Positions 8,156 through 50,179 of a DNA stretch of 64,000 bases are shown piece after piece (the stretch's first letter is position 1; every line of letters begins with the position of its first letter). The notes beneath the pieces are model-generated. The model had not been told where the DNA came from, made no database searches, and saw only the letters and a program-made list of their open reading frames with translations. The position numbers and the translations under genes are program-made. The stretch is from Chrysophaeum taylorii (lineage: Eukaryota; Sar; Pelagophyceae; Pelagomonadales; Pelagomonadaceae), in NCBI GenBank assembly GCA_029834535.1, contig JAQMWT010000668.1:1-64000 (forward strand), in the 5' to 3' direction.

Positions 8156-8174
8156 ATTTACATCGAATTCGACC

Positions 8175-15995: not shown

Positions 15996-17993
15996 CCTGA
16001 CGTTCGACCTATCGGCATTGGCACCGTCCGCCGCCGTGCCACTGGACGGTGCCTTGTGCGTAGCCTCTACTCCGAGATCTCCGAGGCACTGTACCCGATC
16101 AACGTTGCCGTCGGGGTCAAGGGCGGCCCCTCGCGCCTCGTCTTTGGCGTCCGCACCCACGCGGAGCAGTACCCCGACCAGGTCATCATCAAGCTGGACA
16201 AACGCAACGCCTTCAACGAGCTCAAGCGCCGGACCGTCGTGGACAAACTCGCAAACCACGCCAACGCTAAGCTTCGTGCCTTTGGCCACTTTATGTTCAA
16301 GCAATTACGGCCGGCATCCTGGGTGGCCCTCCATGGCCCCACCGGCCTCGATCGCGCCCCCTTCGACTCTCAAGAAGGCGGCCAGTAAGGCGACCCCACC
16401 TATCCACCGGCGTACTGTCTGGCAACGCATGACGCCGCACAGGCCCTTGACACCCGCTTACGTTCATGTGCCGACTACGCACGATTTGGCATGGACGACG
16501 GCGTCATCTCTGGTTCCCCTCGTGAGGTTGTCGACGCCCTCCTGCAGTACGCCCGCGACATCCAAGCTAGCGGCGAGGAGCTCCGCCTCGACAAGTGCGT
16601 GGCGTTCTGTCCGGCACTTGGCATGGGTCTTCTCGATCACCCCGATGTTCACGACCACGTCCAAGTTGCGCCTGACGGCACGCGTACTCTTGCTGGTATC
16701 CCCGTTGTCGCCGACGGCCTCATAATCTACGGTGTGCCCATCGGCTCCCCCGGACACGCCGGAGATGCCTATGTCGAAGCTACCTTGCAACGCGAGGTTG
16801 ACGCTCAGGTGAGCTCCATGAGCACCATTCGCACCAAGCTCCAGAACGTCTCCCTCCACTGCATGTACTCGTTGGGCCGCTACTGCATCGCCCCGCGCAT
16901 GGACTACCTCGCGCAACACTGCTACCCCACCATTGCCTTGAGCGCGCTCCGCCGCTTCGACGTTGCCGTCCTCAGCTTCGTCGCCACAGCACTTGGCGCA
17001 GAGCCGCGTCAGGTTTTTGACTCCACCGGCATCGTCCTCCAACGCCTCCGTCTTCCTGCTCGAAGTGGGGGTGGCGGCATTCGCTCCTGCGCCGACCTCA
17101 GCCCCGCCGCCTTTGTTGGCACGGCGGCCCAGGCCCTCCCACACCTCGTCGACCTTCGCGATCCTACGGGTGCCGTGGAGGTCCCTGGCTACCTCCCCCG
17201 CCTCGCCTCGGTCCTGGGTGCCACTTCTTTTCGCACAGGTAACGAGTTGCACCGTTGGCACCACCTCCTCGCATCCGGTTGCCGCCTGGGGCGAGCACTC
17301 CAGACTGCGTGGGACGGACTTCGGGCTGATCTCCGTACCACGCTGGCTTCCCACGGCGGCGCTGGTTCCGGCGACCCCGCCAACGTTCATCTCGTCGACG
17401 GTCCTCTCTCCCACGAATTCGTCTCCGTGGGCGTCCTCGTCGACCCCACCATCTCGACACCCGTGCTCATACCCCAACTCCAGCGTGCTCTAACCTCCCA
17501 GCGCGAGACAGCTCGGGCCACTGCACTCCAGCGCCTTGCGGCCACCCTTCCCATCACCGATGCACTTCGAGTAGCGGCGCCCTCATGGGATCGCTTCTCG
17601 ACCACGTTCATCAGCTCGTGGCCCAGCTCCGCGCTTCAAATTCCCAACCGCTGCTGGGCTGAGATGTGTGCCCAGTACTTTGGCTACCCCTCTCCAGCTT
17701 GTTCGGGCCTCGTGGGCACTCGCATTCTGGGCACTGACGTCGTTCTCGACGCTCACGGCAAGGTGCTTCTCACGCAGGCCAACCTTGTCAACCGCGGAGG
17801 AGCGCGGACCACCTGGCATGACGGCCAGCTCGAGTGCGTCCTCTGCAGCGTCAAAGAGGCCGGCATCCCAGCCCTGTCCGAGGTTTTCGGCATCTTTGCT
17901 GACGTCGTCGCCCCTACCATTCGCACGCGCCTCTACGGCCGGTACCGAGGCAATCTCGCCCGTCGCCACGTCGTCCCAGACATCCTCACCATA

Positions 17994-18215
17994 GCTACGT
18001 AGCCGCTGTTCGACAGGGCCCAAGAAGCCAGGCGGTGGTGCTGTACCCGGCTGGGGGATGGTGGCGTCGATGCCGCGGGCGTGAGCGAGGTATTCGGAGT
18101 GGACTTGCGCTGCGCGCCGATCGACAGGCGACGGGTGGGAGGGATGGAGGGCGTGGGCGGTGCATAACGAACCCCAAGCGAGGGTTTTGATGTCGTAGAG
18201 TTGCTCCTTGTTGTC
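17994..18215 (-). other. Micro-inversion inside the LINE ORF
   Basis: The plus-strand LINE frame ends at ...RRHVVPDILTIA and resumes at AGLVFGAFGEAS. The missing part (KEQLYDIKTLAWGS, PVDRRAAQVHSEYLAHARGI, GPVEQRLRSYG) is open on the minus strand of exactly this interval. Re-inverting it restores the expected order. The left breakpoint lies in the palindrome GCTACGTAGC. Confidence 0.72.
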
Positions 18216-18603
18216 GAGCGTCGCCGGCCTCGTCTTTGGTGCCTTCGGTGAGGCAAGCGCGGCGTGCCACGCTCTCGCCCAAACATGCGCAGAGCGCATC
18301 GCTGCGCGAACCTGGGTGGCAAGCGGCTGCGCCAACTTCACAGAGGCAAAGGCGGCCCAAACTCGCCGCATCTACCGTGAGTGGGGGATCGCCAACGCAT
18401 TAGGCCGGGCTCGCTGTGCCCTCACCGCCCTCACCCATGTCGCCACCTCGGGGAACCGCACCCAGGTCGCCAGATCCCAGCAGGACGTCACCCTTCGTCG
18501 CACATACGTCCGGCGGCAGCATGCGTACGACCTACGGGCGGGGCCCGTCCTCTCTTCGCCTGCCCCACGACTCGGCGATGACCCCGACTAGGTCCCGCGT
18601 ACT

Positions 18604-18703: not shown

Positions 18704-19716
18704 ACAAACAGCAAACCAGCTGATCACCCTGGTATCGGCTACGTAAAGCTGGACTACGCACTGTTCCTCGAACCTGCCAGTGGTCGACACCTATTTATCC
18801 ACACCGCTCCCGAGTGGAACACGGCGCCTATTTATCCTCAGCGCTCCCGAGTGGAACAAGGCCCAGCTGACTGTCACCCTTAATGACAGCGAACAACCAA
18901 ATATGTCACATCTCACAGTTTGATTGACAAGGATGTGCAAGTACCTATTCACTTTGTGGATCACTACCTACCGGCACTATCCTGTCCGCCTTGCGCCCTG
19001 GCACGTGACAGGAACATTGAATTACGTTCGTTGGCTTCTACATTGAAGAGATACATCAGGGACCTACGTCATTATTACAATTACCTGGTGACAATACTTT
19101 CCGCACGCCCATGGTTGCGTAACCTACTACTTGGTCTTCGGAAGCAAAACGAGTACGATCAACAAAACACCCCTCCTCTTGCTTGACTGCGCACTCGACC
19201 ACCATTCCTATCAATTACAACTAATTGTTCTCGCAACCAACGGTCATGCTATTATGTTCTGGATTGTCAACACCTGCGTTTCTGTCACAAGCCACTAATG
19301 ACTTGGTTCTGAACATCGATGTTATGATTGCTGTTGAGTCCGACGAAACTCTTGTGCGCATGTTACGCAAAGAATCCCCAAATGTTATTACCTTTCAATC
19401 TCTTCCTTCTTTCCTCAATCATCTCCATGCCATTTCGGAAGAAGAAATACGGACCCTAAGTTGCGACATCGTTGAGCTTACACCCCGTATTATCTGCGAA
19501 TCATCTACATGCTACCATCCTTCGTGTCTATTTCCTTCCTTTGGACTTACAGCCACTGCTGCGACCGAAACGTCGTTAAACTACCCGCCAACGGCACCTA
19601 CTGCCTCGGCACAAGTTACAACACCGTGTAGCAATCGCAGTCTGCTCAAGAACACCAAAACATCCGACATCTTTAGTTTGCTCGACGACTCTTTCTTTTA
19701 CGGTATGCTACCTGTC
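18704..19716 (+). mobile_element. Ty1/copia family B, copy B-3, piece 1 (protease to methyltransferase)
   Basis: It starts in the protease C-terminal region (DHPGIGYVKLDYALFLEP...W, matching HPQIGYVKIDFALCLKP of B-1), continues through LRSLASTLKRYI and LLLGLRKQNEYDQQNT, and then the start of the methyltransferase domain (VMLLCSGLSTPAFLSQATND, VESDETLVRMLR, CDIVELTP). The B-1 5' LTR was inserted at 19717, in the middle of this domain; the continuation is at 43746. B-3 is old and has many interruptions. Its LTRs and gag are not recognisable in the window. Confidence 0.85.
19563..19583 (+). repeat. SLNY-type junction motif in B-3 (methyltransferase)
   Basis: GACCGAAACGTCGTTAAACT plus A, read T-E-T-S-L-N-Y. 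In B-3 it lies in a segment absent from the methyltransferase of B-1 and B-2. Confidence 0.85.
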
Positions 19717-20027
19717 TGCAGAGAAATCTGCTGCCTCTTACCCTTATCCGTCCGTTGAGAACGTGATCTCTTCCTTACCCTTCTTCTTCCTTCTATACAG
19801 TCAATTAGTCCTCTGATCTGTGCCCAAGCTCATCACGATGTACTAGCGCGCCCCGAGGTATGTAGCGCTATACACTTAACCTTTCTCGTGTAGTTCTAGA
19901 TGCCGCCTGTCGTGTTCTGAGGATATAGGGGACATACCTTTCATTCCCCGAATTAACCTTCCAGACGTTCATGATGAGACGGGATGGTTTCCCAGGTGAC
20001 TTACCACTGCATGCTAAATGCTCGGCA
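19717..20027 (+). repeat. B-1 5' LTR (family B, 311 bp)
   Basis: It starts TGCAGAG and ends CTCGGCA, and matches the B-2 LTRs (46744-47060 and 57492-57804) end to end. The family ends TGCAGAG/CTCTGCA form a 7-bp terminal inverted repeat with canonical TG...CA. Confidence 0.95.
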
Positions 20028-20067: not shown

Positions 20068-20101
<34 letters not shown>

Positions 20102-20456
20102 TCAGACCTCTCCCGAGCATGGGAGCCAGGCCGGACCGACAGGTGCCAGTCCGGAATCACGGGCCTGTAGACGAGGAGCGCCGAAAGGTCGGTCGGCGGA
20201 GAGTGACCATCAAGCTTGTCGCCATGCGACGAGGAGACCGCGATGTGACTGACAACCAACTCGTCGATAACCTTCCGTCTGCGCCCCCCGGCCATACCCC
20301 GTCCCACTGCGAACGTTTCGGCTGCCAACCGGCCCGCCCGGGAGGCGAATAGGTGCCAACCTACGCCGGGAGGGCGGATGCCCTCGCAAGGCTCTGGATT
20401 CATGAGGCACCGTCCTCCATCGCAAAACCGCAGTCGGCGATCAGGGTAAGCGAGGG
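20068..20456 (-). mobile_element. SINE-like repeat copy 2 (near full length)
   Basis: This 389-bp insertion in the B-1 leader has its tandem tail (here ACTA repeats) at the left, so it reads on the minus strand. It is flanked by TGTGTTAA (20060-20067 and 20457-20464). The empty site is seen in B-2 around 47093-47105. It includes the head found in the 59037-59407 copy. Confidence 0.85.
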
Positions 20457-22031: not shown

Positions 22032-22432
22032 TGGAGAGATTTGACCCTCTCCGGGTACATGGTAGAGACTGCGTGCAGTCTTAGGCGTGTACAGACCATT
22101 CCGCTTGCCACATGCTACTACACAAGGTAGGGATTTAAGCCCTAACTCCTTAAGGACATTAGGTCCCATAGAAGCGTTTACACTGACAACGAGGAACGAA
22201 GCCTCTGTTAATTAAACAGAAAACCCCGTACCTGACGGTACGCACCTGGAGGCCTACTCCATGTTGGAAAAGAGCTTCAGACTGGGTTCTTCATAGTCAT
22301 GAAAATATAATTGCGGAAGGGTAAGGAAGGAAGGAGGAACGAGGGAAAGCCGTATTACGGAGAGAAAACCCTCGTGTAGAGATAGGTGTGAAATGTTCCA
22401 GTGTCGCACACATAATAGTGTAGCTCTCTGGA
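22032..22432 (-). repeat. A-2 3' LTR (401 bp)
   Basis: On the minus strand it starts TCCAGAG and ends CTCTCCA, and is nearly identical to the 5' LTR at 33821-34221. It is preceded on that strand by the polypurine tract GAGGGGG (22433-22439). Confidence 0.95.
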
Positions 22433-22549
22433 CCCCCTCAACGTGTGAAAACGGTTTATGCATTTCAGACGTTCTTGAAGCGGAACTTGAGCAATATACA
22501 TGAGAACAGTGAACAGTGGAACAAACAACAACAGAACAGGACAAATTAA

Positions 22550-24601
22550 TTATGATGTCGAGCGTGTTGTGATGTTGCGCAAAGAAGCCGTATCGGTATC
22601 CACAACATCAGATTTGTGGTCCAATTCACCCTCGCTATTATCGTCCAGTTCCTTTAACTCTGGAGAAGACGAATTATGATCATCGGAGGATAGGTCGTTA
22701 GCAGTGTTGGTATTGTGCGTAGTCATTGCATCACTCAAGGTGACCAAGGGTGACATAACAGACGAAAGGAAAGACATAGCAGCATCTGGTGTAAGAGCGT
22801 GTAGATCCAATGCAGGAATAACACGATCATGTGCATCAGACATAGCTGTGTGGAGGTTATGAGCTGCTGCGTCGATTAGAACTCGCTGTGCCTCATTATA
22901 CGTATCTGGAGGGAGCTGTCCAATAGACGAGATAAGCGACCGAGAAATGATATGGACAAATACAGCAGAGGTCGGGATTATGGTGTTCTGATGCATTTGA
23001 AGACTTGACAAAATGTTATCTAACAAGGAAACATGTTTGATGTTCTCGGTCACTTGGGTATTAAGAGTTTCGTAGGTGTCTTGCATCTGTGTGAGAGAAG
23101 TTAGAGCAAGCGATAGTTGATGTTCTCGTGCCATCAATTGCTGTTCGGTGTTAGTGAGACGTAGAGATAAAGACCGAATCTCTTCTTTTAATTGGTGTAA
23201 GGATTCAGCCATATTGTCGTTAGCTTTATCTGGCGTGGGCTCGGCGGGTGGATTGTCGATCGGCGCTGGTGACACATCTTCAGAAGGGGTATTATTAGAG
23301 AAGGTATCAATGATATGGGATGGGTAGCCAACTTGGATTAACACGTTTTTAAATGCTAATTGTTGATTAGGTGGAAGTTGGCAAAAGTAGTGTAGCATTG
23401 GCGGTACCGTCTCGGAAGAAGTTGCGTCAAGTTGATGAGAAACATCGTTAACAAAGCGTTCGATGAGCACGTTAAGTAACTCCTCAGGATTGGTAACTAC
23501 GCAGGTTTTATCTTCCACAGATTGTAACAAAGACCAAGCTGCTACAAGAATCTCAAGATTTACACTCGAAATGAAGGGCAGCTGCAGTAAGAGCATGGTG
23601 TTAGCGTCAGGGTTGACGAGAATTTTAGAAGCATCAACGTTATGGGATGTTGCAGTCTGCATGATTGCCTCTTTGAGCAGCTTGTTAATAGCAATGGACT
23701 TTCCAAGACGGAGGATTATGGCTCTTATGTGGGCAGCTGGATCATTATAACAAGAGAGTTGGAAGGGATGCTGATTGTTGCGAATTAACGCTATCCCATG
23801 ATTCGACAAGTTACACATCACACAAATCAACAAAAAGAAAGGGCGCGGTACATCGAAGCAGTGCGATGCATGTTGCTCAGACGCGAGATGATCCTCAATA
23901 ATTTGGCGAATCCTGTCAGTTTTAAGCTCATCTTCAGTACAGATGATGAGCACGAGGGGTGTGCCCGGCATCTCAGTTTTATTATAACACTTTGTACACG
24001 CCACATGTACTTTGACAACCCCTTTAATGGGTGGAAAGCGGTGAAAGCGAATACCTTCATTAGGAGATATAGCGGGGGCATTCCGAATGCGCTTTGCTTT
24101 GACGCACAGCAATGAACTAAGATATTGGACGTTGTCCACAAAGTCTGTCTGTTGTGCTTCGGTAAGCAGCTGCTGCAAAGACTTAAGCCAACACTGAGGA
24201 TCCTTATGCTGTGGGATGGGAAAGTTCGGCGGGGATGCACCAAGGGCGGATATATTCCCTGACATCATCGCAAGTGCGTCAAATTTGCAATGTTTAAACA
24301 GGAAATACTCAGATTTTGATGTTTGCGATTTAGACGGTTGTTGGACAGTTGCCTTGGGTGCCTTAGGCGTAACGGGCGTAGATTGATGTCCTTGAGCCAC
24401 CGACAAATAGGTTTGATGCTTCCGATTAGGGGAACTAGTCGGTGCAACGCTTGGAGTTAGAGCATTAAAAGGTGGGGATAGTGACGGTGCACCACCACGA
24501 CCACGGTTCAGGGTAGAATGGCGCCGGCTCGCAGCATCTTTGTTTTTAGTGGGATTCATCGTAAAAGAAATATCCACATCACATCTTTCATTGCATTTCA
24601 C
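22550..24601 (-). CDS. A-2 3' ORF: unrecognised CxxC/coiled-coil protein (683 aa)
   Basis: It lies downstream of RNase H and upstream of the polypurine tract. I do not recognise the family. It has a basic Ser/Pro-rich N terminus (RGRGG at 33-37), the motif CTKC at 202-205, CVMC at 260-263 with a further Cys at 284 and HIRAIILRLGKS at 291-302, and a conserved block SVNLEILVAAWSLLQSVEDK. There is a coiled coil over about residues 465-545 and an acidic Ser/Asp-rich tail. It matches A-1 (3296-5362) throughout and, in arrangement, the two-part region of B-1 (41904-43741) and B-2 (55482-57260). The Cys/His spacing suggests metal binding, but this is inference. No membrane segment is seen, so an envelope is unlikely. 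Confidence 0.75.
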   Translation of the reverse strand: MKCNERCDVDISFTMNPTKNKDAASRRHSTLNRGRGGAPSLSPPFNALTPSVAPTSSPNRKHQTYLSVAQGHQSTPVTPKAPKATVQQPSKSQTSKSEYFLFKHCKFDALAMMSGNISALGASPPNFPIPQHKDPQCWLKSLQQLLTEAQQTDFVDNVQYLSSLLCVKAKRIRNAPAISPNEGIRFHRFPPIKGVVKVHVACTKCYNKTEMPGTPLVLIICTEDELKTDRIRQIIEDHLASEQHASHCFDVPRPFFLLICVMCNLSNHGIALIRNNQHPFQLSCYNDPAAHIRAIILRLGKSIAINKLLKEAIMQTATSHNVDASKILVNPDANTMLLLQLPFISSVNLEILVAAWSLLQSVEDKTCVVTNPEELLNVLIERFVNDVSHQLDATSSETVPPMLHYFCQLPPNQQLAFKNVLIQVGYPSHIIDTFSNNTPSEDVSPAPIDNPPAEPTPDKANDNMAESLHQLKEEIRSLSLRLTNTEQQLMAREHQLSLALTSLTQMQDTYETLNTQVTENIKHVSLLDNILSSLQMHQNTIIPTSAVFVHIISRSLISSIGQLPPDTYNEAQRVLIDAAAHNLHTAMSDAHDRVIPALDLHALTPDAAMSFLSSVMSPLVTLSDAMTTHNTNTANDLSSDDHNSSSPELKELDDNSEGELDHKSDVVDTDTASLRNITTRSTS

Positions 24602-24675
24602 ATTTTAGCGAGCCAGTATTCCTTTACATAGCAGGGTTAGTTTAAAGTCATTTCGGACATAATGAAGGGTAAGGA

Positions 24676-27340
24676 TTAACCATCTTGTTGAGCTATGGGT
24701 TGTTGTAAGCCGAGTAACGTGCGAAATCTGCTGAAGAGCGGAGCTCCAAAGGGTTTAGTAAATCCATCGGCGATATTATGGGTACCGGAAACATGATGTA
24801 GACGTATACGTTTTAACTGTACGTAGTCGCGAATACGGAACCAGCGTGTGCTGATAGCTTTGGCCTTAGTCGCACTGTCGGGATTGTTGGAAAGATGAAT
24901 AGCAGAGGCAGAGTCTCCAAGTATAGGACTGTTACGTATGAACGACATGTCCGATGGGAGGGGATTGTCGTGAGCATCATAATCTAGTAGCAAGTCTTTC
25001 CCTGAAGGTTGGCGGAGATAGAAGTGAGGATTTATAGCGAATGCCATTTCCGTTAACAATTTGCGTAACCAGACCACATCATCGGCACACATATTAAGGG
25101 CGATAAGTTCACTCTCATGCGTAGAAGTAGCTGTAATAGGCTGCAACTTAGACTTCCAAGTGATGAGAGAACCAAACAAAAGATAGCATAACCGGTTGTA
25201 GACTTGCGGTCTTGTTCATAAGAGGGTGCATTGTCAGCATCAACGAACGCGACCAATGGATCAAAATTACCTGAATTAACTTGTTCTTTAGTGTAATCCA
25301 ACATGGTGGCCATGTCAGTACGATTACCGATAAGAAGTCGAAGATGGTCCATTAGAGCGGAAGAACCAGAGTAGTACCAGAGGCGAAGATTGCGATTTTC
25401 GGGCTTGCGCAAGTGGCGGAGCGTTCCTGATAGTACTTGAACATGTAGAAAGGCTGGATTATGCATTCCTCGAGAGCAACGACTAAGACTTTGTGATAGA
25501 TCGGGGCGACAGGCCAATTGGACAAACGTGAGCTTGCCGAGTAGAGTGGAGAAGGTGTGAAGGATGAACTTGTCCATATCAGAAGATGGCTCTCCAGTTT
25601 TATACGTGGTTGATGGTGACATCGGTGTGGAGGTGGGACGTAACTGCATTAAAATGGGGTACTCTTCGAACAATGCATCAAGTTTAGCCTGACAGTCCAG
25701 TGATATAGAACCATCAGTTGTACGCGTTATGCGCATGCCTAAGAGAGTATGGACTTCCTCGAAGGTGTCGACTGAGTATTCCTTTTTCAGGGCTTGCTGG
25801 AACTCACGACGTAGAGTTTCCGAAGTGCAAGTAATGACGACGTCGTCTACTGAGAGCGTGCAAATTAGAAATGTAGCGTCAGCTTGGACTTTAGCGTAAA
25901 TGCATGTGTCTGTTCGAAATCGTGTATAGCCTAATGAATCAAAGAAGCCGTTTATGGTTTGATTCCAAAGGGCAGGGCTCTGACGTAATCCATAGAGAGA
26001 TTTAAGTAGCTTTGGGAGACGACGGCCTTGGTATTTAGTATCTTCGGGATCGAGAAGGTAAATGCCTTGTGGCAGTTTGACATAGACATGAGAATCGATG
26101 GGAGCTTGAACAAAAGCGTTAGGGACGTCGACATGGTAGACGGGAAGTCGCAGATGAGCTGCTAGCGCCAGAACACAACGGATGCCAGTAAGCTGTGCCA
26201 TAGGGCTGAATGTGTTGAAAAATCGGTGCCCAGAGAGGCTAAGAATCCTCGTAGGACCAGGCGTGCTTTATGTTTAATGTACTGACCAGCAGCGTTGGTT
26301 TTTATACGTAGGACGAGGCGGGTGTCAATAGGCTTTGAGTTGACCATTGGCAGCGCTAGTTTAAAGCAGCCAAACTTAACAATATCAAAAATCTCCTTGG
26401 AGATGGCAGCAACATAAGCTTTGCGATCAGCGTCTGAGAGACCTTTGAGGCAGTTCAACTCATATTCATCAATTTTGATATCTTTGGCTTGAATCTTGTA
26501 TTCGTCCGAACCAACCGTGCTGGGGTCATGAGTCGTCGTCAGATGAGTAATTGCGTAAGAAGCGACATTATCGTGCAGATGAGCGTGATCGGGATCTTCG
26601 ACGAGTTGAACAACTAGTAGAGGAGCATCACCAAGGTGGGCCTCAATGTAATGCGATTGCACGGTGATATAGTCTTCGATGGCGGAGAGATGAGGCTCGG
26701 AGGCACCATAAGAAGCGTCATTATGATCCAAAATGGAGTGGGGCGTGAACAAAGCATAAACATATTGAGCGGGAGGAACTTGAAAGGCGTGAGCATGTTC
26801 AGAAATTAAATGAACGAGAGCTTGAGGGAGGTGAAAGTCTGCAAGGTTGACGTCGTCGCAGAAGTGAACATGAGGAGCATCAGGCGATGGGTGGCTATGG
26901 CTCCTATGACACATAACTGAAGAGGACTGTGAGATCGCTTGGTGCACATGGTGATGAAGGGATGGTGTAAATTCCCCCTCTGGAGGTATAGCCGTCCAGT
27001 GGATGCCATGAGCAAGATGAAGGGAGTGGAGGGTGGGGTCGCAGAAGGTTATGTACTGCTTGGAGAGGTCATACTTGAAGTCGGCAAGCGTACCACCGGC
27101 TTGTTTATAAGCGGCAACAGTAGGCGAGGCAATACGAGTAAGAACATCCTTGAGATTGGTTTTGCGACGAGGCTGAGGGTGATGAGGACCACGGGTGAGA
27201 CGGGACATCCTGGGAATAGAGAGACCGATAAGATGGTAAAAGTGGCAAAGTGTTGGAAGACACTTCAGATGTAGGTGTGGTGGCGGAAGTAGCGGGTGCA
27301 GAAGCAGCTGGAGCACATGCGGGAGCGGGAGAGGGAGCAT
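24676..27340 (-). pseudogene. A-2 linker, reverse transcriptase and RNase H
   Basis: Minus-strand order: Pro/Leu-rich linker, VGSDEYKIQAKDIKIDEYEL entry module, KHKARLVLRGFLASLGTDF, YHVDVPNAFVQ (first catalytic Asp), KSLYGLRQSPALWN, LSVDDVVITC (catalytic pair), LLGMRITRTTDGSISLD, then RNase H with DRKSTTGYAIF, HESELIAL, GDSASAIHLSN and NIADGFTKPF. All key copia landmarks are present in order. It is closely related to A-1 (1179-3237). Confidence 0.92.
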
Positions 27341-27400
27341 GGAGATGAGAAGAAGAAGTCCCCCTCTCAGTGTCGGTAGGCATAGCATTCCCCCTCTGCG
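26972..27400 (-). other. Internal polypurine-tract-like runs in A-2 (linker)
   Basis: Purine runs (minus strand) with a GAGGGGG core lie at 26972-26983, 27359-27370 and 27388-27400, matching the positions in A-1. A fourth is in the gag-protease linker at 31577-31590. Confidence 0.5.
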
Positions 27401-27479
27401 CCGCATCATTGGGGGTGCTGTGAACAGAGAAGGGAATGTCGGGTGAAGGTGCGGGAGGTGGATGCTGTTCATAATCAGG

Positions 27480-28867
27480 AGGAGATTTAGAAATAAGATG
27501 AGGAAAAGTCAGTTTAGAGGAAACACGGACTTGACCGTTTTCAGGATTAAGGACAACATCGGCTAAATGATTAACATGGGGTGTTATTAAAGGGTTTATA
27601 ACGTTAGCACCACATAAGTAGATGTAGGGACGACATCGGGGTTCATATTTATGAAATTCGTTAGGTTCCAAATGCAGATAACAAACAGAACCAAAAGGTT
27701 TGAGGTAGTCCTGTTGGGGAACATTACATTGGTCTAACAAAACTTGTTGGGGGCTTAGGACTTTATTGTAAATACGTTCGAGGGAAACGTTAGGGAGGAG
27801 ATTATACGATTGGATGGCATGTATAACAGCCCACGGGTAGTGTGGTGCCGGATCTGTTAGGGGGTGACCTTTATAGGATACATTAAGCATATGCCGGAGT
27901 CGTGTAGACGCGGCAGTGGCTATGTGACCAACAGCGGCTTCTACTTCATGATTAAAGACATGTAAGTAAGGGGGGAACGCGGACATGTTAATACCATGTT
28001 CCACACGAAAGGGGGTTGTAACATGCTGAGATAAATAGGGTTTAAAGGAATCACAATAGATTTGTTTGAGTTGTACATGAACATAAGTAGAGCAAAAATT
28101 GCGGACAAACTCAAGGGCGTTACAAAATTCGCTGGAGTTAGTGCTACGACAAAAGTACACTAACAAAAATTTAGAAATGAGACACTTAAAAACAATGATA
28201 TGTCGAAAGGATCCCCATTCCGAGAGAACGGATACGTAACCACCGTCACATGCCCAGGCTTCACCAGGTTGAAAATTTTTTCGAATGATGGTTGCTTGGT
28301 AAGGTGATGTGGATGAGGAAAGCGTTTTTTATGAATCGTACAATCCACACAGAACTTACGGTAGGGTACGTCAGATGGGTGGTGTCCAGGACTGGCAATA
28401 ACCTGAACAGCTTTTATAGCTTGAGAATCACTAGAATGGTGGATGTTGTGAAAATTGGTGGCTCGTTGTTGCGCATCTCGAAATGCGAGGGTGCCTCTGG
28501 CATAAACTTTCTTATCGAAGGGCGCATGCTTCTCATGGAGCTGTCTTGGCGTTATAAGAGGAATGTGTTTTTCTTTAGTAGGAGATGATGTATCTGCGGA
28601 TGAGGTGTTAGAGAGGAAGACATGAGCTACTGAATCGAGATGAAAAGATGGAAGTTCGTGGTTAGAAGCAGGATTATCACAACATGAAAGTTTTTTATTG
28701 GAGATGTAGAACATTGTAATGGAACTCTGGTGTAATAATAAGGATGTATCTGTTGGGAATATATTTGTGAAGAAGGTTGACCTATAGTTTTTGGTTAGAG
28801 AGGCATGATCAGGGTCAAACGATGGTGATAGCGTTAATTTACGCAAGTCATAGACAAGCTGACACAA
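27480..28867 (-). pseudogene. A-2 integrase
   Basis: The N-terminal zinc-binding region is NFHNIHHSS...KFCVDCTIHKK (HHCC type, about 28340-28450). The catalytic core includes YCDSFKPYLSQHVTTPF for the second acidic residue and HVFNHEVEAAVGH for the glutamate. The C-terminal block is LERIYNKVLSPQQVLLDQ and ADVVLNPENGQVRVSSK. The B-1 and B-2 integrases align residue for residue. It is part of a nearly whole but interrupted element. Confidence 0.88.
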
Positions 28868-28878
28868 ATGTTTATAAA

Positions 28879-30573
28879 TTATATGATATGTTCCAGCTGG
28901 AATAGCATTATTATATCACAGCATAGGTCCGGGGACAAAGACAGAAGAAAATTGATTTGGTGCGCTGTGAAGTTATTGGCGCGTGCCAATTCGCGAGTTG
29001 AGTAGTGTCGGATGCGATCGAGTCGTGGATCGTACACGAGCATATTAGCAAATCCACGAATGGTAGGAGTAGGAGTGTATATGGAATGAACTTTGGCACC
29101 CATCTTCCTATCGCTTGATGTAATAAAGCCCAGATATCTGCTTTGGGACAAATGCATGTCACTTAAAGCAAACATTTTATCGATAAATTCGAGACGATTT
29201 TCCTGAGGGTAGAAGACAAAAGAATCGTGAAATACAGGAGAAGTATAGGTGACCAGTGCTTGTACTAAACGACGCGTGTCTTGATTTTCATTATTGTGAT
29301 GGTATGCTTGGCAAAGCCAAAGAAAACCAGTAACAGGTTCGAGAGAAGCAGTCTTATCAATTCCGGCATCATGTGTTAGGAAGATATAGGTTTCGCCAAA
29401 AGCATTTATATGTGCCTGGTATTTAGAAGAGGAGTTAGAAACTGTTATGTCTCCGCCTGTATGTCTTCCACCAGTGATGTAAATGATGGATGAAGTAGAG
29501 GATTTATTTAAAAATAACCTGTGAGATGGTTGGTGAGATTCGATAGTTGTAATACGAAAGGACACAGGTAATGTGATAGATTTAGGGAATAAGCGTCCCA
29601 TAATATTATAGAGGAGCACGAAAGCTTTGAGTTCAATAGGGGATCTCATGCAAGCAAGTGGTTTTCTTGAATTAGTCAAGAATCCCAGGCGAAAGTTAGA
29701 AATGCCCTCCATTTCATCTTGACTGGGATGTTCGACTGTTTTATTAGAGTGCAGACGAAGGAACAGCATAGTTAAGGTTTCAAGCTCAGTCACAGTTAAG
29801 CGCACGGACCCTGTACGACTGAAAATGTTGTAGGTTTTAGGTGTGGACACGAATGGTATGTCAGGAAAGACCTGCGTCCAAGGTTCGTCGACTATTAACT
29901 TGCGACTGATGGAATTAGCGTGGTCTGCAATGTCCAGAAAGGAAGTGACTCGTTTATTAGGCCATGAAAGCAGATCAAGAGGGCCGGTGTTATATTTACG
30001 TGCAACGAGGATCCATCTTTCTCTGGCTTGATAATCTCCACATAGATAGCATGGAAATCGGTCACATATATCCACCGTATAGTGCATCGTTGAGAAGATG
30101 AGATTAGCAACTCGTATATGATCTTCATACGATGCGGAGTGTGGTGGTGTCATTTCCATGAAAAGAACAAGCGGCTTTAAAAGCTCAAGTACACTTAGAG
30201 CACTTGGAAACAAGGAATCATCCATATCACGCTCGAAGGTGGAAATGGATCTCCCATTGATTATGTTGCGATTTGTGCATGGTGATGTCAATTCCACTAT
30301 ATCGGTGTAATATCGTGCACGTTCAACGTCCGATGCTCGATGGAGATATGTCAGAAACTTAGGTAGGGATGGGAAAACTTCGATGGAATTACCAAAACGT
30401 CTTCGTAGCATGTGCGTGATATTGTCGTCGCTCTCAACAAGAACTTTAACGTTGATGTTGATTTGCAAGTCATTAGAAGCGCAAGCCAAGAATGCAGGAG
30501 TGGACATCCCAGAGCAAAGTAGAGTTACAGTAGGTGTTCGTGGGCTAGGAGATGAAGTTACTGTGTGGAGCAA
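28879..30573 (-). pseudogene. A-2 C5-cytosine methyltransferase-like domain
   Basis: This is a 564-residue open frame between protease and integrase. Methyltransferase motifs in order: TLLCSGMSTPAF as motif I (18-28), VLVESDDN as motif II (44-51), DIVELTSPCTN with the Pro-Cys of motif IV at 98-99, LFMEMTPP with the motif VI glutamate at 140, and YQARERWILVARKY as motif VIII (Q182, R184, R186). A long target-recognition-like region follows, then TPTIRGFANML and RHYSTRELARANNF as motif IX (about 520-535). Catalysis by the motif IV Cys, transfer from S-adenosylmethionine and the QxRxR motif are family knowledge. That the domain is or was active is inference, supported by retention of motif residues in three families. 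Confidence 0.8.
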
Positions 30574-30591
30574 ACGTGTTGTAACCTTGCG

Positions 30592-32718
30592 TCATACAGG
30601 AGGTGGGAAATGCTTGCGTATGTAAGGCAGCTGCGAATGCATTGACTCCAGGATGGTTTTAAGCCATGGGACGTAAATTACGCGTTCCATGAGGGTGGAA
30701 TATAGTTTAAGCATTTCGCGTTGTTCATTAAAAGCACATAGTCTGAACTGTAGTGAGCGAAGTTCCATTTTACGCGCTTTTGCTTGTTGTAGCGAATAAA
30801 TTGGTAGAGTTGGCAACAGGTTACTGAGTCTAAACAAAGTAATCTTGACATTATCATCAATTTTACTCTGGATAGATGATTGTCCTTTAAATTCAACTCC
30901 ATAAAGATGTATACCAAGTTTATCTTCTCCCCATTGAGTCATACTGATGATGTGCAGATCGGGATCGTTATGGTCGTTTTGCTTGGGTAGAAAAAGCGCA
31001 ACGTCTAGCTTTACATATCCCACATTTGGATGCTTTGGGAGAGCGGGAATGACGGTCCTTATAATCATAGCATGTGTGATTCTCTGCGTATCCGTAGCAG
31101 TCTGGATAGCAGGTGATAAGGACTCGGGTAGCTTTACGATGTGGATAGGATCAGCATAACGTTTAAAGTTAATTACATGTTGAGAAGCACATGTGTCAGC
31201 ATATCCTGGCGTAGTCATTAGCGGCAAATTGTACTCGTTGTACAGTTTAAGCATTGTTGCATAACAGGCATGTGTTGAGCTTTGACCAAACACGTACTGT
31301 GTCATGAAACTTTGCGTTTGTTCGGAAGGCACAACGACGAGTGTAAAACCAGTGTTTAATTTTGGTAGCAACACAGGGGGATCTGTGCCATCTTCATTAT
31401 CTTCGTTGGGTAGATTATTGGGGAGCTCAGAGTGCGAGGAAGTTTCCCGAGCTTGACGACGAACGATAGCATTCTGAGCTTTAGCATTTATGTGCTGCAA
31501 TAGCGGCTGAGGGATGTTATCGATTTCATCATCTTTAATGGACAGAAAAGTGTGGAACATTTTCTCTGTATCAGCAGTCCCCCTCTGCTCCGCATCACTG
31601 GGGGGCGCTTCAGGAGCAGATGTTTCAGTTTGATACTTTTCTTCTGAAACATAGGATTCCTTATCGGCTTCTAAGAGGTTCACAATGGTATTGGACATAG
31701 TATCAACTCGAGATAAGTAGAGATGAACTTGGGTGGCTTCGTCAGGATCTAAGGACTGTGTCGAAGCTTGAGAAGCGGTTGTCCAGAGGGTACTCAGTAA
31801 GCTTTTCATTTCCTCCTGTACCATTTTAGAGTCGGTAGAGGGGCTGGGATTCGCTTCCTGTAGTTTACCAAACAGGTGGCGAAGACGATGAACTTGATAA
31901 GTAGCCCGGTCCATAAGAGACATATTAGAGCGTGCATTACGGTTAGAGGAAGATGAGTAGACAGGACGATCGAAGCTGGTACCTTTGACGTTATAATTTG
32001 AAGGTGGACGATAGTACGACGTGTCACGAGGTGAAATTGTCGATGCTTTGTCTTTTGCATTACGAAGCTTACGAGCGTTGAAGCCAGACTGTCCAGCTAC
32101 AGTAGCTAACAACGAGTAAGCGTTGTTTAGAGAGTCGTGGGATTGATGAATAGTATCCATCAATAATACCTTAGGTGGCTTGGTAGCGGTAGTACCAGGG
32201 ATGTAAGGGATCCAGGAAGCGGGTTTATCCAAGCGTCGGTTAGAGGAAAACTTTGTTTCATTGTATATTTTTAACAAGAACTCCAATAACGGACGAACGT
32301 CGTTAGGATCAACTAGCTTTAACAATTCAGGATCGTGAATCGAGTTGTTCCCAGAGCGTGTCTCGTAGAGTTTACACCATTCCAATAAAGATTGAGAATA
32401 GCGCTCGTGATCCGAGGGATTAGCATATAGACGGTAGATCTCCTCATGAGCTTTAAGAGTGATTATGGAGTTATTAAATTGGATTGATGCTTCATCATTA
32501 TTTAATTGCTTTGCCTGAGATTGGAAGGCAAGGAGTTGTTCGACAAATACATGGGCATACCAATTAACATTTAAAGATATTCGATTAAACTGTGATTTAA
32601 GCTCAGTAACATCTGTACAAGACACTGTCTCATAGTAATGGTAAGCTAAAAGCATTACTGCACGTAGTTTATTAGGATGTGCAGTAAGTGCATATATCTT
32701 CTTTAATTGAGGCCACAT
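30592..32718 (-). pseudogene. A-2 gag C-terminal part and protease
   Basis: The first ~330 residues continue Gag (VSCTDVTELKSQFNRISLNVNW, as in family B YLKQQFNSVVYNPNW). A low-complexity linker with SDAEQRGT follows, then a retropepsin-like region: ADTCASQHVINF (a D-T-C-A form, with D-S-C-A at the same place in family B), ATDTQRITHAMIIRTVIPALP and HPNVGYVKLDVALFL. It ends at ...LRSLQFRL...YIRKHFPPPV. The methyltransferase frame follows in phase, as it also does in B-1 and B-2. Confidence 0.8.
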
Positions 32719-32751
32719 AGCGAGTGCTGGTTTGTCTTGTGATTCCAGATT

Positions 32752-33333
32752 TTAAAATGTGTACAAGAAACCAGCATAAGTTTCGCAGTGTTTGATCCAG
32801 TCGGTATTAGAGAGACCTGTAAAGGACATGTTAGTTAGAGAAGAATCATACACAATTGATTTAGGGAATCGGGTATCTAATAGATTGAGGACACGTTTAA
32901 CATCCTCATTTAATTCGGGACGAACGAGATTGTATGACTCTTGGTAATAAAGTCGTTCGAGATTATTACGGACATCAACTGTTAGTTGATGTGATGAATT
33001 GACGTGCCAAGTTTTAAAATGATCAGGCAGGGCATCTTCATCAGGTAAGTTTAAATCGTTTACTTGTTCAGCTTTCCATTGAGCGAAGATGATATCAACT
33101 TCTTGTTCAAGAAGTTGATTATACTCCGGAGCATTCCGGGTGTAAGCTTCATATGAATCGAAGCAGAATAACGCGTCCACATATGGACTTGTCATATGCC
33201 TGCGAAGCACCTCAATTTGCAAGCTCACCTTGGTTGAGTTGTCTTGGAAACGCAATCCTGCGTTAATTTTATCAACGAGGATTTGTTCTTGTTTGTAGAT
33301 ATCCGTAGTGGATATTGGTTTTTGTTTTGACAT
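32752..33333 (-). pseudogene. A-2 gag, N-terminal part
   Basis: Starts MSKQKPISTTDIYKQEQ and contains KVSLQIEVLRRHMTSPYVDA, FCFDSYEAYTR and LSNTDWIKHCETYAGF, each with a direct counterpart in family B gag (KVSLQIKHIKQLL, EYDSYEAYTR, ADWHTYQNTYATF). No zinc knuckle. The interval 33334-33806 upstream is the leader, in which I see no gene. Confidence 0.85.
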
Positions 33334-33806
33334 GATTGTGACCTATTAAGGAATAGGTTGTAGGATTGATAGACATATTCGACACATAAGAATGAAGGGT
33401 TTCTCGAGTGCGGGTTCTATGTACAGTACGCTATTTTAAACGTGGGCTTATTGACAAGACCAAACAAATCAACATGCTATTTAAAAACAGGATGACTTGA
33501 GACTGCAGAATGGATTAATTCTCGAGCAGTCAGTCTTTTGTTGGGGAACAGAAGGAAAAACCCGTACAAGTTTCCGCTGCGCTTGTATAGGGGAAAATTT
33601 AATTTTATTAGCCATGCGAGTGCATATGACCAGTGACCGACCCAACTCGGTCACAAACCAAATTAACTGGTGGGCACATACCGTCACATAACAAATATGT
33701 ACAGTAGACCACCGCCAAACACATTGTCGCATTGTACTCGTGATTAGGCGTAAATTGATCACTCCATTTAGACGTACAACACAGTTGGGCTGACACACCT
33801 ACGCAT

Positions 33807-33820
33807 CTGGGCCCATAACC
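33807..33820 (-). other. A-2 primer-binding site (initiator tRNA-Met anticodon arm)
   Basis: On the minus strand GGTTATGGGCCCAG directly follows the 5' LTR. It is identical to the family B sites at 20028 and 47061 and fully complementary to the initiator tRNA-Met anticodon arm. Confidence 0.85.
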
Positions 33821-34221
33821 TGGAGAGATTCGACCCTCTCCGGGTACATGGTAGAGACTGCGTGCAGTCTTAGGCGTGTACAGACCATTCCGCTTGCCAC
33901 ATGCTACTACACAAGGTAGGGATTTAAGCCCTAACTCCTTAAGGACATTAGGTCCCATAGAAGCGTTTACACTGACAACGAGGAACGAAGCCTCTGTTAA
34001 TTAAACAGAAAACCCCGTACCTGACGGTACGCACCTGGAGGCCTACTCCATGTTGGAAAAGAGCTTCAGACTGGGTTCTTCATAGTCATGAAAATATAAT
34101 TGCGGAAGGGTAAGGAAGGAAAGACGAACGAGGGAAAGCCGTATTACGGAGAGAAAACCCTCGTGTAGAGACAGGTGTGAAATGTTCCAGTGTCGCACAC
34201 ATAATAGTGTAGCTCTCTGGA
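33821..34221 (-). repeat. A-2 5' LTR (401 bp)
   Basis: Nearly identical to 22032-22432. On the plus-strand side (34222 onward) B-1 gag coding resumes. Confidence 0.95.
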
Positions 34222-34226
34222 CGTAT

Positions 34227-35933: not shown

Positions 35934-38247
35934 ATGCTTTCTCGTCCAGTGTTTCTATCACAAGAGCCAAATCTTCGCAAACCCTCTGTCATGTTGCTTT
36001 GTTCTGGTTTGTCAACCCCAGCGTTCCTGTCTCAAGCCACTAATGACCTAGGCTTAAATATCAATGTAAAAGTTGTTGTTGAGTCTGATGATACGCTTGT
36101 GCGCATGTTACGCCACCGTTTTCCTACAGCATTATTATTTGAATCCTTGCCCGCCTTTATTAACCATCTCATCAAATTTCACCAGAGGGAAGGCGCAAAT
36201 TTTATTGTGATATTATCGAGATAACTCCACCTTGCACTAACAGGAGTATATTAAAGCAGCATAAAACCGAAGACTTACACAGTCTGCTCGACGACTCCCT
36301 CTTTGACAGCATGCTGTCTGTCATCAAACTTCTCCAGCCCTTGGTACTACTGGCTGAGATGACACCACCCCACAAGTACTGTCATCAAGACCACATAACT
36401 GTGGCCAATCTCATCCATTCCACACTCGATTACTGTGTTGATGTTGTTGACAGGTTCCAACCTACCTATGTGGCGACTACCAATCTAGGGGAAGATGGAT
36501 CTGCATCGCACGCAGGTATTCTACTGGACCAATTAACATACTCTCATGGCCTATCCATCACCCACGCCCCTTCTTTAAGATCGTGGATGACATACAAGCC
36601 ATTCCTAAACGACTTTGGCTATCAAAATATATTGCCAAAGACTGGGTCCGGGTGTTCCCCGATCCACCAGATGTCCCCGTTCCTAAAACTTTTGCACCTT
36701 ACTCTCGCACAGGTTCTGTTCGGCTTACCATGACTGACCTTGAAACACTCAATTTACTGTTTCTCCGCCTTCACTCTCAACAGGCTCACGAGCAACGCAC
36801 GCACTCTGTTCAATCCGAGTGTACTTATCATCGGCTGTGTTTCAAACGCTCCTCCATGGAACCACTGCCACATGCAACTAATCCATTGCGTGTCAAGGCC
36901 TTCGCCATATTATACAACTTGTTTGCCAGATTGCACACTAACTCACCCACTCCTGTGTCCTATTACATAACCGTTTTCGAAACTGACCAACCGTCACATA
37001 GGTTACTACTTACAACCTCATCAACATCACACAACACCTACTTCTTAACGGGTGGCCACCACACTGACGGCAACCTCACCGTAGAAAACGCCGCCACCAA
37101 ATATCATGCTTCCATTGACGCGTTTGGAAGCACGTATACGTTTACTGCCTCCAACGTCCCCCGCGACAGAGACAGATCTGTATATTTGGAGCCGTTCATG
37201 GGTTTCTTGTGGATCATCCAAGCCCTTCCTCAAGTTGGCTCCGCTGCCGCCTATGGCACTGCCATACAAAAGCTCATTTCCAGATGCTCTCTTGTGATGC
37301 CTGACTGCCTTACCTACAAGGCCACCGACAATTCTTTCGACTACAAGGACTCTCACTTCGCTTTGGAAGATCACCACTTGTCCCATAGTCGCTATATAGG
37401 GTATCTTCGTGGAAGTGACCGCAAACTTGGCTCTAAAATCCACTCCATGCTTGCTCCATTGCCCACCGTCCTAGGGTATGCAAACATTATCTTACTCGAC
37501 CCTCGCAACGGGAAATTGCGCTATCCCACTCGACCGGAGTTGATTCGTGCTAACAACCACACCAAACAACAGGAATCTTTCCTCTTGTCTCTTCGCCACG
37601 ACCTTTGCTGTGACATGCTCAGCAATGCTCTGCCTGCCGGTACGTACAGCACACTGTACAAGCACCTCTCGCTCCTCGTTGCCGATATTAAGTCCCTTAT
37701 GTTGGACCCTACCTTCCAACATGCTGCTGCTGTGATGAAGAAATCCCATGTATCCACCTTCATAACCTTCGATCCGGCCTCCACCACGTGCAGCACAGAT
37801 ACCTTGTTTTTGGCACAAGCCTTCATGACTTCTATCTCCAGCAACTGCTTGACCGAAATGTCGTTAAACTATATGTCTTCGTCATCCTACGAAGATACTC
37901 TAGGTACTTGTGATGATGAGGACACACCTCCAAGTGACCCTGCTGCGCATCAGGATGACGACGCACCGTCTCCTCTTGCCTTGGACACCGAACTCGAGTT
38001 CGATGTTCGGCGCAAACGTCATATCCCCGCTCACCCCATTCCTCGCAAATCCCTCGCGCACGGATCTGCTGAATATCTCAACGCCAAGGAACGTGCCAAT
38101 CGCTTCCACCGGGTGCACCACTGCCCCGACAACGTTGCAGCCAAGGCCCTCAACGTACTGGCTCGCCCTGGCTTCTCTGCCTCAGATCTACCGTATCGCG
38201 ACTTATGCACCGACTGCATCGCGCACAACAAGCGCCACCCGCACTAG
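35934..38247 (+). pseudogene. B-1 methyltransferase-like domain and integrase zinc finger
   Basis: Order: VMLLCSGLSTPAFLSQATND (motif I), VVESDDTLVRMLRHRF (motif II), LLQPLVLLAEMTPPH (motif VI glutamate), a variable target-recognition-like region with SSTSHNTYFLTGGHHTDGNL, LAPLPTVLGYANIILLDPRN, RYPTRPELIRANN (motif IX), CCDMLSNALPAG (motif X). The SLNY motif follows, then a basic/acidic spacer and the integrase zinc finger NRFHRVHHCPDN...LCTDCIAHNKRHPH (about 38098-38243). It is collinear with B-2 and A-2 and is part of a broken element. Confidence 0.82.
37851..37871 (+). repeat. SLNY-type junction motif, B-1 methyltransferase/integrase
   Basis: GACCGAAATGTCGTTAAACT plus A, read T-E-M-S-L-N-Y, between motif X of the methyltransferase and the integrase zinc finger. 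Confidence 0.85.
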
Positions 38248-41300: not shown

Positions 41301-41907
41301 ACAGTTTGATCCCTTAGTTGCCATGGTTGACGCTGACAACGCCCCCTCCTTAGCACAGGAAGATAGGAAATCTACCACCGGGTTTGTCTTCTATCTTTTC
41401 AACTGCCTTATTTGTTGGAAAAGCAAGCTTCAACCGATTGTCTCCTGCTCAACTCACGAAGCTGAGTTGATTGCCCTCAGTATTTGTGCTGATGAAGCTG
41501 TTTGGCTACGCAAGCTGCTGTTGGAACTTCCCTTTGTCGTCAACCCCACCTTCTACGTCAACAATGTTAATGGTGAGAACGCCGCTGATCCTGTTGACTT
41601 CGATGACAACGACAACCCAATTGCTGAAGATATGCGCTTCATCAGAAGCCTCCCTCTCTTGTCTGACAATGCTGCTGCTGTTCACACCTCTAATAACCCA
41701 GATGGATCCTCTCGCTCCAAGGCACTGTCGACCAGATGGTTTAAGATCCGTGAGTACATCTCGCTACAGAAAATTCGAGTCCATCATGTTCCCGGCAAGC
41801 TAAACGTGGCTGATGGTTTTACAAAGCCACTTGCTGCTGAGTTCTCCACTTTTCGTTCTCTACTCGGTATGCATCATGCCTCTGATGACAAGCCTCTACA
41901 GGATTGA
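38323..41907 (+). pseudogene. B-1 integrase core, linker, reverse transcriptase and RNase H
   Basis: Integrase core: GYVTIPSEWGGFTHIIVFKE, LYSDAFKPYFSQHI (second Asp), FNFEVESAIGF (Glu), then LERIHHAILSPQQLLYNQ and ADVVLNPENGQIRVSSK. A Pro/Ser-rich linker follows with purine runs at 39166-39175, 39193-39201 and 39566-39576. RT: VGPDEYKVQEADVSIDEYKL, KHKARLVLRGFLASLG, YHADVPNAFVQ, LSVDDIVIVS. RNase H: MVDADNAPS, THEAELIALS, SDNAAAVHTSN, NVADGFTKP. Nearly every copia landmark is kept; the copy is broken. Confidence 0.9.
40021..40041 (+). repeat. SLNY-type junction motif, B-1 integrase/RT
   Basis: GACCGCAACGTCGTTAAACT plus A, read T-A-T-S-L-N-Y, just before the RT entry module VGPDEYKVQ. Confidence 0.85.
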
Positions 41908-43172
41908 AGATGCCTAACCCCAGTGACCGCAACGTCGTTAAACTAGCCCTGGCCCTACCTTCTTTTGCCACAAACTCTTTTGTGCGTGTGAGTGTGTCGC
42001 CAATGTCGTTTTCTTGGCACTCCCGTGGCCGCGGCTTCTCCCCAGTCGTTCGAAGGACAGTCCCACGCTCGCTCTCCACGGCCGAACCTTCCCCCAGGTT
42101 GTCGCAAAAGCGACAAACCATGACTGCTGCTACCACACAGGCTGCTGCTGTTGCACCGACACCAGCCGTGCATGTCTCACCTCAGTCGCTGACGTTCCAG
42201 GACTGCCTCAGCATTGACTATGCTGCGTACGAGCGAGGAATCTCTCTCTTTGAGGCCTACCGTGTCCCTGTCACCCCATTTCTCTCTTCTTTTATGCGAG
42301 TGGAACTCATTACTGCTCTTCATTCCGTTTATGAGTCTAATGACTCTTCATTATTTGTGGAATTGGTTACATTCATATCCATGCGCTTGCCAATCACGAT
42401 CACCTGGGAAGCTGCTCCTGCTATTGCTTCTATTGGCTGCTATAGAGGCCCCAAACGCGAACGTTTCATTTTGTCGTCCTTTTGTACGCAATGCCTCGAT
42501 GATCTTGGACAACCAACTTTCCTCGACTCAACTACTTATAACTCAAAGGCTCAAACGCCTCGTGAACTACCTACCAAGGTAATGAGTCACCTCAACATGG
42601 ACGACCATAAGAAGAATGGTCACATCCCCATTTCTGCTATTACAGTTGGCTTGTGCCTTGCGTGTGAAAATACTGATCAGGTGCCTACGCAACATACCGT
42701 ATATGCTCGCAATGATACTTCTCTCCAATTCCCGTGTGATGCGCGCTCGGCTGGTCATATACGCGCTACCCTCATACGCGTCTATCATTCGTCAAGGGAG
42801 TTATATACTCTTTTGACAAGTATGTTAGCTCAGCAACCGTCGCTTGTTAGCTTGGTCTTATCCGTATCCGCTATAGCCACTGATCCCACCACACAATTGC
42901 CATTCGCACTGGATCTTCGGCTTATAACACAGATGCACCTTGAGCATCTTAATTTCCTTGTGACTCTTGTTCGAACACAGAGTCGCAAAGCTCAGGCTAT
43001 GTTCAAACCATCCAGGTTCCAGCATGTGGTCACTACTGTTGCTCAATCTTGGGTACAACATCTTGACGACTACGTATCATCTTCAGATGATACAAAACCG
43101 CCGTCACTCCTGGATGAGATGTTCGGCCCCACTTATACTCAGGCAGAACATCAAGACTTTCTGCGCTTTTAA
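41904..43172 (+). pseudogene. B-1 3' ORF region, N-terminal (CxxC) part
   Basis: Downstream of RNase H. Ser/Pro-rich basic N terminus (RGRGFSP, compare RGRGG of family A), then FLSSFMRVELITALHSVYES, SIGCYRGPKRERFILSSF and ITVGLCLACENTD with a Cys about 22 residues on and HIRATLIRVYHSS. This CxxC...C...HIRA pattern matches CVMC...C...HIRAIILRLG of the A-2 ORF, showing homology despite low identity. Function unknown. Confidence 0.68.
41925..41945 (+). repeat. SLNY-type junction motif, B-1 RNase H/3' ORF
   Basis: GACCGCAACGTCGTTAAACT plus A, just downstream of the RNase H coding end and in the same codon phase as pol. Confidence 0.85.
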
Positions 43173-47060: not shown

Positions 47061-47074
47061 GGTTATGGGCCCAG
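47061..47074 (+). other. B-2 primer-binding site (initiator tRNA-Met anticodon arm)
   Basis: GGTTATGGGCCCAG directly abuts the LTR, as in B-1 and A-2. The leader 47075-47581 beyond it holds no gene that I can see. Confidence 0.85.
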
Positions 47075-50122: not shown

Positions 50123-50179
50123 CTACTCTCACGGCCAGTTTTTCTCTCACAAGAGTCCAATCTCCGCAAACCCTCTGTC

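Follow-up and report, generated by a model that had tools for sequence, protein, structure and literature searches.

Three families of Copia retrotransposons in the genome of the pelagophyte Chrysophaeum taylorii are predicted, from sequence comparison and structure modelling, to encode a C5-cytosine-methyltransferase (MTase) domain of about 530 residues in the interval between the protease (PR) and the integrase (IN). The domain is laid out as a catalytic lobe (motifs I-VIII), a region of about 290 residues at the place of the target recognition domain (TRD), and motifs IX-X. We propose, with slightly better than even confidence and on the strength of sequences and models, that this Pol-borne enzyme was captured once and methylates the element's own cDNA before integration. 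The DNA analysed here (the window) is a stretch of 64,000 nucleotides, i.e., positions 1-64000 of one contig, in a genome of 70.8 Mb and 697 contigs; a profile search of this genome found the light-harvesting family PF00504 84 times, as suits a photosynthetic eukaryote.

The window is a nest of Copia elements belonging to families A, B, and C. Element A-2 (22032-34222, minus strand) is inserted within B-1, its ends being the points where the matches of B-1 to B-2 stop and resume, and B-3 seems to be split in turn by B-1. The two long terminal repeats (LTRs) of A-2 (5' LTR, 33821-34222; 3' LTR, 22032-22433; both minus strand) are identical at 398 of 402 positions (99.0%), and those of B-2 (5' LTR, 46744-47060; 3' LTR, 57492-57804; both plus strand) are 95% identical; no paired LTRs were found around the window's C copy. 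Directly after the 5' LTR, both A-2 (33807-33820, minus strand) and B-2 (47061-47074, plus strand) carry the word GGTTATGGGCCCAG, which is likely a primer-binding site common to families A and B. Some Copia elements are primed by a short tRNA segment, and the word presumably fits the anticodon half of the initiator tRNA-Met. ARAGORN detected no tRNA gene in the two 141-base stretches that hold this primer-like word.

In A-2 the gag and protease frame (P0010, 30592-32751, minus strand), which has a DTCAS protease-like motif by eye and nothing above the Pfam cut-off, is followed by the MTase frame, an integrase core frame (P0033, 27105-28328, minus strand) and a reverse transcriptase (RT) frame (P0032, 25053-26267, minus strand). 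P0033 is homologous to the integrase part of P0006 and matched rve (E 0.0026) and SH3_retrovirus (E 9e-6), both under the curated cut-offs. P0006, the integrase and RT frame of B-2 (52182-55466, plus strand), matched RVT_2 at E 7.9e-42 and rve at E 0.0028, the latter under cut-off. Membership in Ty1/Copia is indicated by the LTR pairs of A-2 and B-2 and by the order PR-IN-RT: RVT_2 is well above cut-off in P0006 and in P0011, a relative of family C described below, with rve upstream of RVT_2 yet below cut-off in both and the protease called by eye. Because of the RVT_2 match and the IN-before-RT order, the host elements are assigned to Copia, not to Gypsy or DIRS.

An extra conserved frame is found downstream of the RT in A-2 (22550-24604, minus strand), A-1 (3296-4810, plus strand) and B-1 (41889-43172, plus strand). 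The A-2 and B-1 versions are 24% identical over 262 positions (E 2e-4) with Cys pairs recognizable by eye, and Pfam gave nothing above cut-off for this frame; a third frame downstream of pol, env-like, is known in Sirevirus according to the available text of PMC8515867. A short repeat (about 170-380 bases) occurs at 8174-8421, 20078-20455, 48530-48697, and 59034-59409, in or beside different elements; its copies are 97-99% identical, and it is perhaps a recent non-autonomous element. The stretch 15934-18371 is GC-rich with overlapping long frames, two of which, on the plus strand, were scanned against Pfam without a match.

The MTase of A-2 is an unbroken open frame of 570 codons (P0001, 28882-30591, minus strand) between the gag-protease and integrase frames, with the motifs in the order I (CSGMST), IV (TSPC), VI (EMTPP), VIII (QARER), TRD-like region, and IX (RHYSTRELAR). 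Its catalytic lobe (motifs I-VIII, residues 16-205) lies at 29977-30546 on the minus strand, and motif X (NNAIP) is found in the next frame (P0034, about 28898-28912, minus strand). Since the alignment of most other A copies to P0001 reaches residue 561 only, A-2 seems to be frame-broken before motif X. In B-2 the catalytic lobe (residues 15-205 of P0003, about 50165-50737, plus strand) is in one frame, and the end of the TRD-like region with motifs IX and X is in a second (first part of P0004, 50925 to about 51569, plus strand). The B-1 MTase is broken between a fragment with about motifs IV-VI (36164-36730, plus strand) and a frame carrying motifs VIII to X and then an integrase zinc region recognized by eye (P0005, 36451 to about 38247, plus strand). 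B-3 has the N-terminal MTase part left of the nested insertion (19225-19755, plus strand) and the remaining part (motif VIII, TRD-like region, motifs IX-X) in broken frames (43666 to about 45004, plus strand). The C pol frame (P0002, 1083 codons, 8415-11666, minus strand) contains a protease-like DGGAS (by eye), the MTase (residues about 307-840, about 9147-10748, minus strand) and the integrase start; its MTase motifs are I (IAGGLH), IV (TLPCQ), VIII (SKTRY), TRD-like region, a motif IX block, and X (NAVP).

The motif order is I, IV, VI, VIII, TRD, IX, X, with X of A-2 in another frame. Motif IV contains PC in A, B, C, P0021, and P0022, and the Glu of motif VI stands within EMTPP or ENVPP; A and B retain this catalytic Glu. 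The window's C copy has lost ENV in motif VI, and its relatives carry ENVPP. We take EMT in A and B to replace the consensus ENV and PCT to replace PCQ, and ISKTR in C to replace QxRxR. A sequence-only reading of the window had already given coordinates and motifs for these copies, and they hold in general; it did not note that A-2 (28882-30591) and C lie on the minus strand, and motif VI was missing from its list. Motifs I, IV, VIII, and IX of A-2 are confirmed in the order that it had given, motif X being present too in another frame, and the motif X it assigned to B and C was confirmed as SNALP (read by eye) and NAVP, respectively.

The PF00145 search suggested as a check of that reading gave no match in the window open frames P0001-P0010, even at E 10 in the Pfam scan, so that the case rests on relatives and on fold. 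P0011, an unbroken Copia pol of 1952 codons that is 86% identical to the window's C copy over 1083 residues, matched PF00145 at E 1.1e-7 ahead of the integrase and RVT_2, all in one frame. PF00145 was also above cut-off in the further C relatives P0015 (E 1.1e-9) and P0020 (E 2.4e-8) and in P0022 (E 1.2e-10), a transcript homologous to A (A-2 versus P0022, E 3e-26). P0023 is an unbroken B MTase with motifs I-X that continues into the integrase. PHROG profile 116 ('DNA methyltransferase') matched A-2 (E 7.2e-4) and C (E 4.5e-4), better than expected by chance, and B-2 only at E 0.036, and had no match in P0004 and P0005. In NCBIfam, dcm matched P0022 at 2.4e-4, under cut-off, and no MTase was returned for P0011 and P0021; P0003 and P0022 gave only noise against PDB sequences. 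The C profile searched against PDB sequences returned C5-MTases in 9 of 9 rows, weakly (best E 0.077), and the A/B profile returned a proteasome subunit first (0.036), a C5-MTase second (0.16) and C5-MTases in 6 of 8 rows, neither search being significant alone.

Structure prediction, the other suggested check, bore out the assignment for A-2 and B-2, on models of low confidence (pLDDT 45 and 49). All 50 rows listed by VIA-align for the A-2 model are C5-MTases, the first being 3g7u, which is annotated as a DNA modification methyltransferase. Foldseek placed C5-MTases at ranks 1-24 for A-2 (rank 1, a DNMT2 structure) and at ranks 1-14 for B-2 (first, 3g7u), other methyltransferases (MnmM) starting at ranks 25 and 15, respectively; the ranks do not separate the DNMT1/2/3/5/6 classes. 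A C5-MTase fold is thus predicted for the catalytic lobe, and the TRD-like region, which lies outside the residues spanned by the A-2 VIA-align matches, gave no fold match. The matches in relatives, the fold matches and the motifs together agree with the earlier claim that three Copia families carry a C5-MTase domain at the same PR-MTase-IN locus.

Copies of the MTase were located in at least 71 (A), 106 (B) and 109 (C) places of the 70.8 Mb genome. The searches scored 76 of 1484 candidates for A, 106 of 1429 for B, and 150 of 502 for C and gave 83, 122, and 152 rows, respectively; since part of the candidates was scored each time, the copy counts are lower bounds. With the window's own row excluded, 24 of 82 A rows (counted by eye) are free of stops, have an identity of at least 95% and span no fewer than 557 of the 570 residues. 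At 52 of 150 listed RVT_2 places (17 with A, 36 with B, one in both) an A or B MTase is found 1-6.5 kb upstream on the same strand, with a median start-to-start distance of about 4.3 kb, and in the position controls no RVT_2 place had such an MTase on the wrong side and one had it on the opposite strand. For this test, 12 partial A rows and 16 partial B rows were set aside, which left 71 of 83 and 106 of 122, respectively. PF00145 matches found in the genome numbered 57 (123 of 474 candidates scored), of which 55 overlap family C, as checked with 109 of its 152 rows, and two are host genes. The homologue search for C found none at E 1e-3, that for A/B, run twice, returned the same two MMETSP transcripts, and no relative of A/B or C was confirmed in IMG/VR. 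P0022 also matched, at 34-38% identity, C118, C36, C3:167918, C344:94568, and other places outside the A and B lists, which represent either additional MTase families or A and B copies missing from those lists.

The sequences support retention of the MTase domain under purifying selection, as the sequence-only reading had supposed. Among pairs with dS above 0.03, the median dN/dS values in family C were 0.15 for motifs I-VIII (20 sequences, 190 pairs), 0.20 for the TRD-like region (11, 55), 0.21 for motifs IX-X (15, 101), 0.14 for the protease region (12, 62) and 0.12 for the integrase (12, 66); in family B they were 0.16 (19, 145), 0.34 (12, 53), and 0.13 (15, 92) for the three MTase pieces, respectively. 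Sequences were selected for being largely unbroken in each piece, a choice that biases the values downward in all domains alike, and the MTase median over motifs I-VIII (about 0.15) is close to the protease and integrase values, which come from family C only. In motifs I-VIII of family B, 18 of 171 pairs gave no dN/dS value; these are probably the pairs with A-2, for which dS is saturated. All 20 C-type and all 16 B-type sequences (the B-type set may include A-2) have the Cys of motif IV. The Glu of motif VI is found in 19 of these C-type sequences and in all 16 of B type; the one C-type sequence without it is most likely the window's C copy.

A single capture by an ancestral Copia before the split between A/B and C, as proposed earlier from the shared locus, is probably the simpler reading of these sequences. 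An alignment of the A/B and C profiles spans 480 columns, motif I through motif X (hhalign probability 91, E 1.1e-6, one comparison), and piece by piece the E values were 1.9e-7 for motifs I-VIII, 0.0025 over 102 columns for the first part of the TRD-like region, and 0.0024 for motifs IX-X. The 21 controls, made for the TRD-like piece alone, gave 0.093 for the reversed profile and 0.041 for the best of 20 column shuffles. Between A and B the MTase motifs I-VIII are 59% identical, and whole-sequence BLAST of B versus P0011 gave E 0.007 across motifs IV-VIII. That A/B and C instead captured their MTases independently, at the same site and from related donors, is unlikely. Two DIRS architectures in Symbiodinium did capture Dnmt3 independently (available text of PMC5890265), BLAST gave no significant match of motifs I-VIII from A or B to those of C, and hhalign gave the TRD-like and IX-X pieces a probability of 12% each; the profile match over motifs I-VIII and that of the TRD-like piece, better than all of its controls, speak for common descent, as do the identical PR-MTase-IN position in all families and the parallel divergence of RT and IN (identity, 61-63% for A versus B and 27-37% for either versus C).

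After one capture by an ancestral Copia, the proposed mechanism would run as follows. The protease would mature Pol and leave the MTase domain freed or fused, the MTase would be packed with RT and integrase into the virus-like particle, and in the particle it would methylate cytosines of the new element cDNA before integration. New insertions would then arrive pre-marked. Such marking might shield or disguise the cDNA, or it might leave insertions in a state perpetuated by the host DNMT5. Self-methylation of cDNA appears the likeliest role because, as part of Pol, the enzyme would be located in the particle where cDNA is made. In the available text of PMC5890265, such a role is proposed for DIRS elements, de novo CG methylation is reported for retrotransposon DNMTs including SymbioDIRS-Dnmt3, and a LINE-borne enzyme tested in yeast gave no DNA methylation.

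The observed/expected CpG ratio was 0.85-1.12 in the window elements, 0.71-0.78 in their LTRs, 1.06 and 1.14 in two non-element window stretches, 1.26-1.46 at three host loci (two of which overlap), 0.89-1.02 at 20 B loci, and 0.98-1.26 at 19 C loci, and the ratio of C/T differences between copies at CpG versus non-CpG sites was 1.18-1.47; base composition and codon use confound both measures. Within family C, cytosines in the C-T context vary as much as those in CpG. The near-background CpG ratio and the low C/T ratio mean that the copies bear little trace of CG methylation. CpG depletion was considered as proof of self-methylation and rejected, since it is too weak and confounded with codon use.

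That weak CpG signature does not call for DNA methylation, and an RNA C5-methyltransferase acting on the element's genomic RNA or primer tRNA would fit the DNMT2 structures among the top fold matches of A-2 (rank 1 in Foldseek) and the likely primer-binding site shared by A and B, with the tRNA identity that we assume for it. DNA enzymes fit equally, 3g7u ranking first for A-2 in VIA-align and for B-2 in Foldseek, and DNMT2 is not known to have a TRD-like region as long as the one found here, so that we judge an RNA substrate unlikely, even though RNA is raised as a possible substrate of LINE-borne enzymes in the available text of PMC5890265. We regard as less probable again a catalytically dead domain that is retained within Pol or integrase for nucleic acid binding or for structure: the low dN/dS across motifs I-VIII and the near-complete conservation of the motif IV Cys and motif VI Glu argue against it, although motifs I, VI, and VIII are altered and PF00145 misses A and B from divergence. 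An unrelated Rossmann-fold or other enzyme with the motifs by chance is extremely improbable; P0001-P0010 taken alone do lack a Pfam MTase match and MnmM follows in the Foldseek lists, but PF00145 is above cut-off in P0011, P0015, P0020, and P0022 and every row listed by VIA-align is a C5-MTase. Self-methylation of element cDNA therefore remains the reading that we prefer.

Among the PF00145 matches found, exon by exon, those outside the elements are the host DNMT2 (P0016; 1g55, E 3.9e-39) and the host DNMT5 with SNF2 (P0017; 7r76, E 1.5e-251) only. A DNMT1-RFD search of the genome gave no match, and its control also matched nowhere. One SRA (SAD_SRA) domain was detected at C594:64137-64520 in a 909-codon frame, and this protein is a possible host reader of methylated CG. 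In Cryptococcus, DNMT5 performs maintenance and has no de novo activity, its preference elsewhere being undetermined according to the available text of PMC9246332. With a DNMT5 and, within the scope of the PF00145 search, no second DNA C5-MTase in the host, this genome offers a direct way to ask where de novo methylation comes from. It is rather improbable that the Copia elements, and not the host, supply de novo C5 methylation and that DNMT5 copies the marks on; if they do, the marks would be written, on cDNA or in trans, by hundreds of element copies, some of which encode an unbroken enzyme.

MTase capture by retroelements is known from LINE, DIRS, and Gypsy elements (PMC5890265, available text). 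The same text supports the charophyte Gypsy precedent given in the sequence-only reading and contradicts its dinoflagellate Copia precedent: the dinoflagellate elements reported there are LINE and DIRS, and the Symbiodinium Copia 'lacks any DNMT domain'. One sentence of PMC12344493 names DNMT3 members in retrotransposons 'including ... LTR Copia and DIRS'; no Copia element with an MTase is described beside that sentence in the available text, and the mention may be a slip because its source, PMC5890265, reports Gypsy, LINE, and DIRS. As far as their available texts go, a survey of plant genomes reports no domain gain in Copia (PMC9289625), no MTase-bearing Copia was seen in PMC9998398, and a methyltransferase of another type is described in a DNA transposon (PMC12477816). 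Apart from the one sentence, the literature searched, mainly open-access and available in part, described no Copia with a C5-MTase; the Copia host therefore appears new, and retroelement MTase capture itself is known. The MTase occurs in deeply diverged Copia families, with one probable origin and continued selection, so that what a retroelement gains from an MTase becomes a testable question, and near-identical recent copies are found together with diverged families in one genome.

Compared with known systems (as described in the available texts), the elements resemble Ty1/Copia (Pseudoviridae) in their LTRs, gag, PR, IN, RT order and likely tRNA-Met primer site, and differ in having an MTase domain, about 530 residues long, between PR and IN (PMC8515867). 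SymbioDIRS-Dnmt3 and SymbioLINE-Dnmt of Symbiodinium also code for a C5-MTase in high-copy retroelements of an alga, unlike the present elements in being DIRS and LINE without the PR-IN-RT arrangement (PMC5890265). KnitGypsy-Dnmt3 of Klebsormidium nitens is likewise a multicopy LTR element whose Pol polyprotein includes a C5-MTase, with purifying selection (PMC5890265); it is a Gypsy element with a DNMT3-related enzyme, whereas the elements described here are Copia and their MTases match generic families (PF00145, PHROG 116 and 363).
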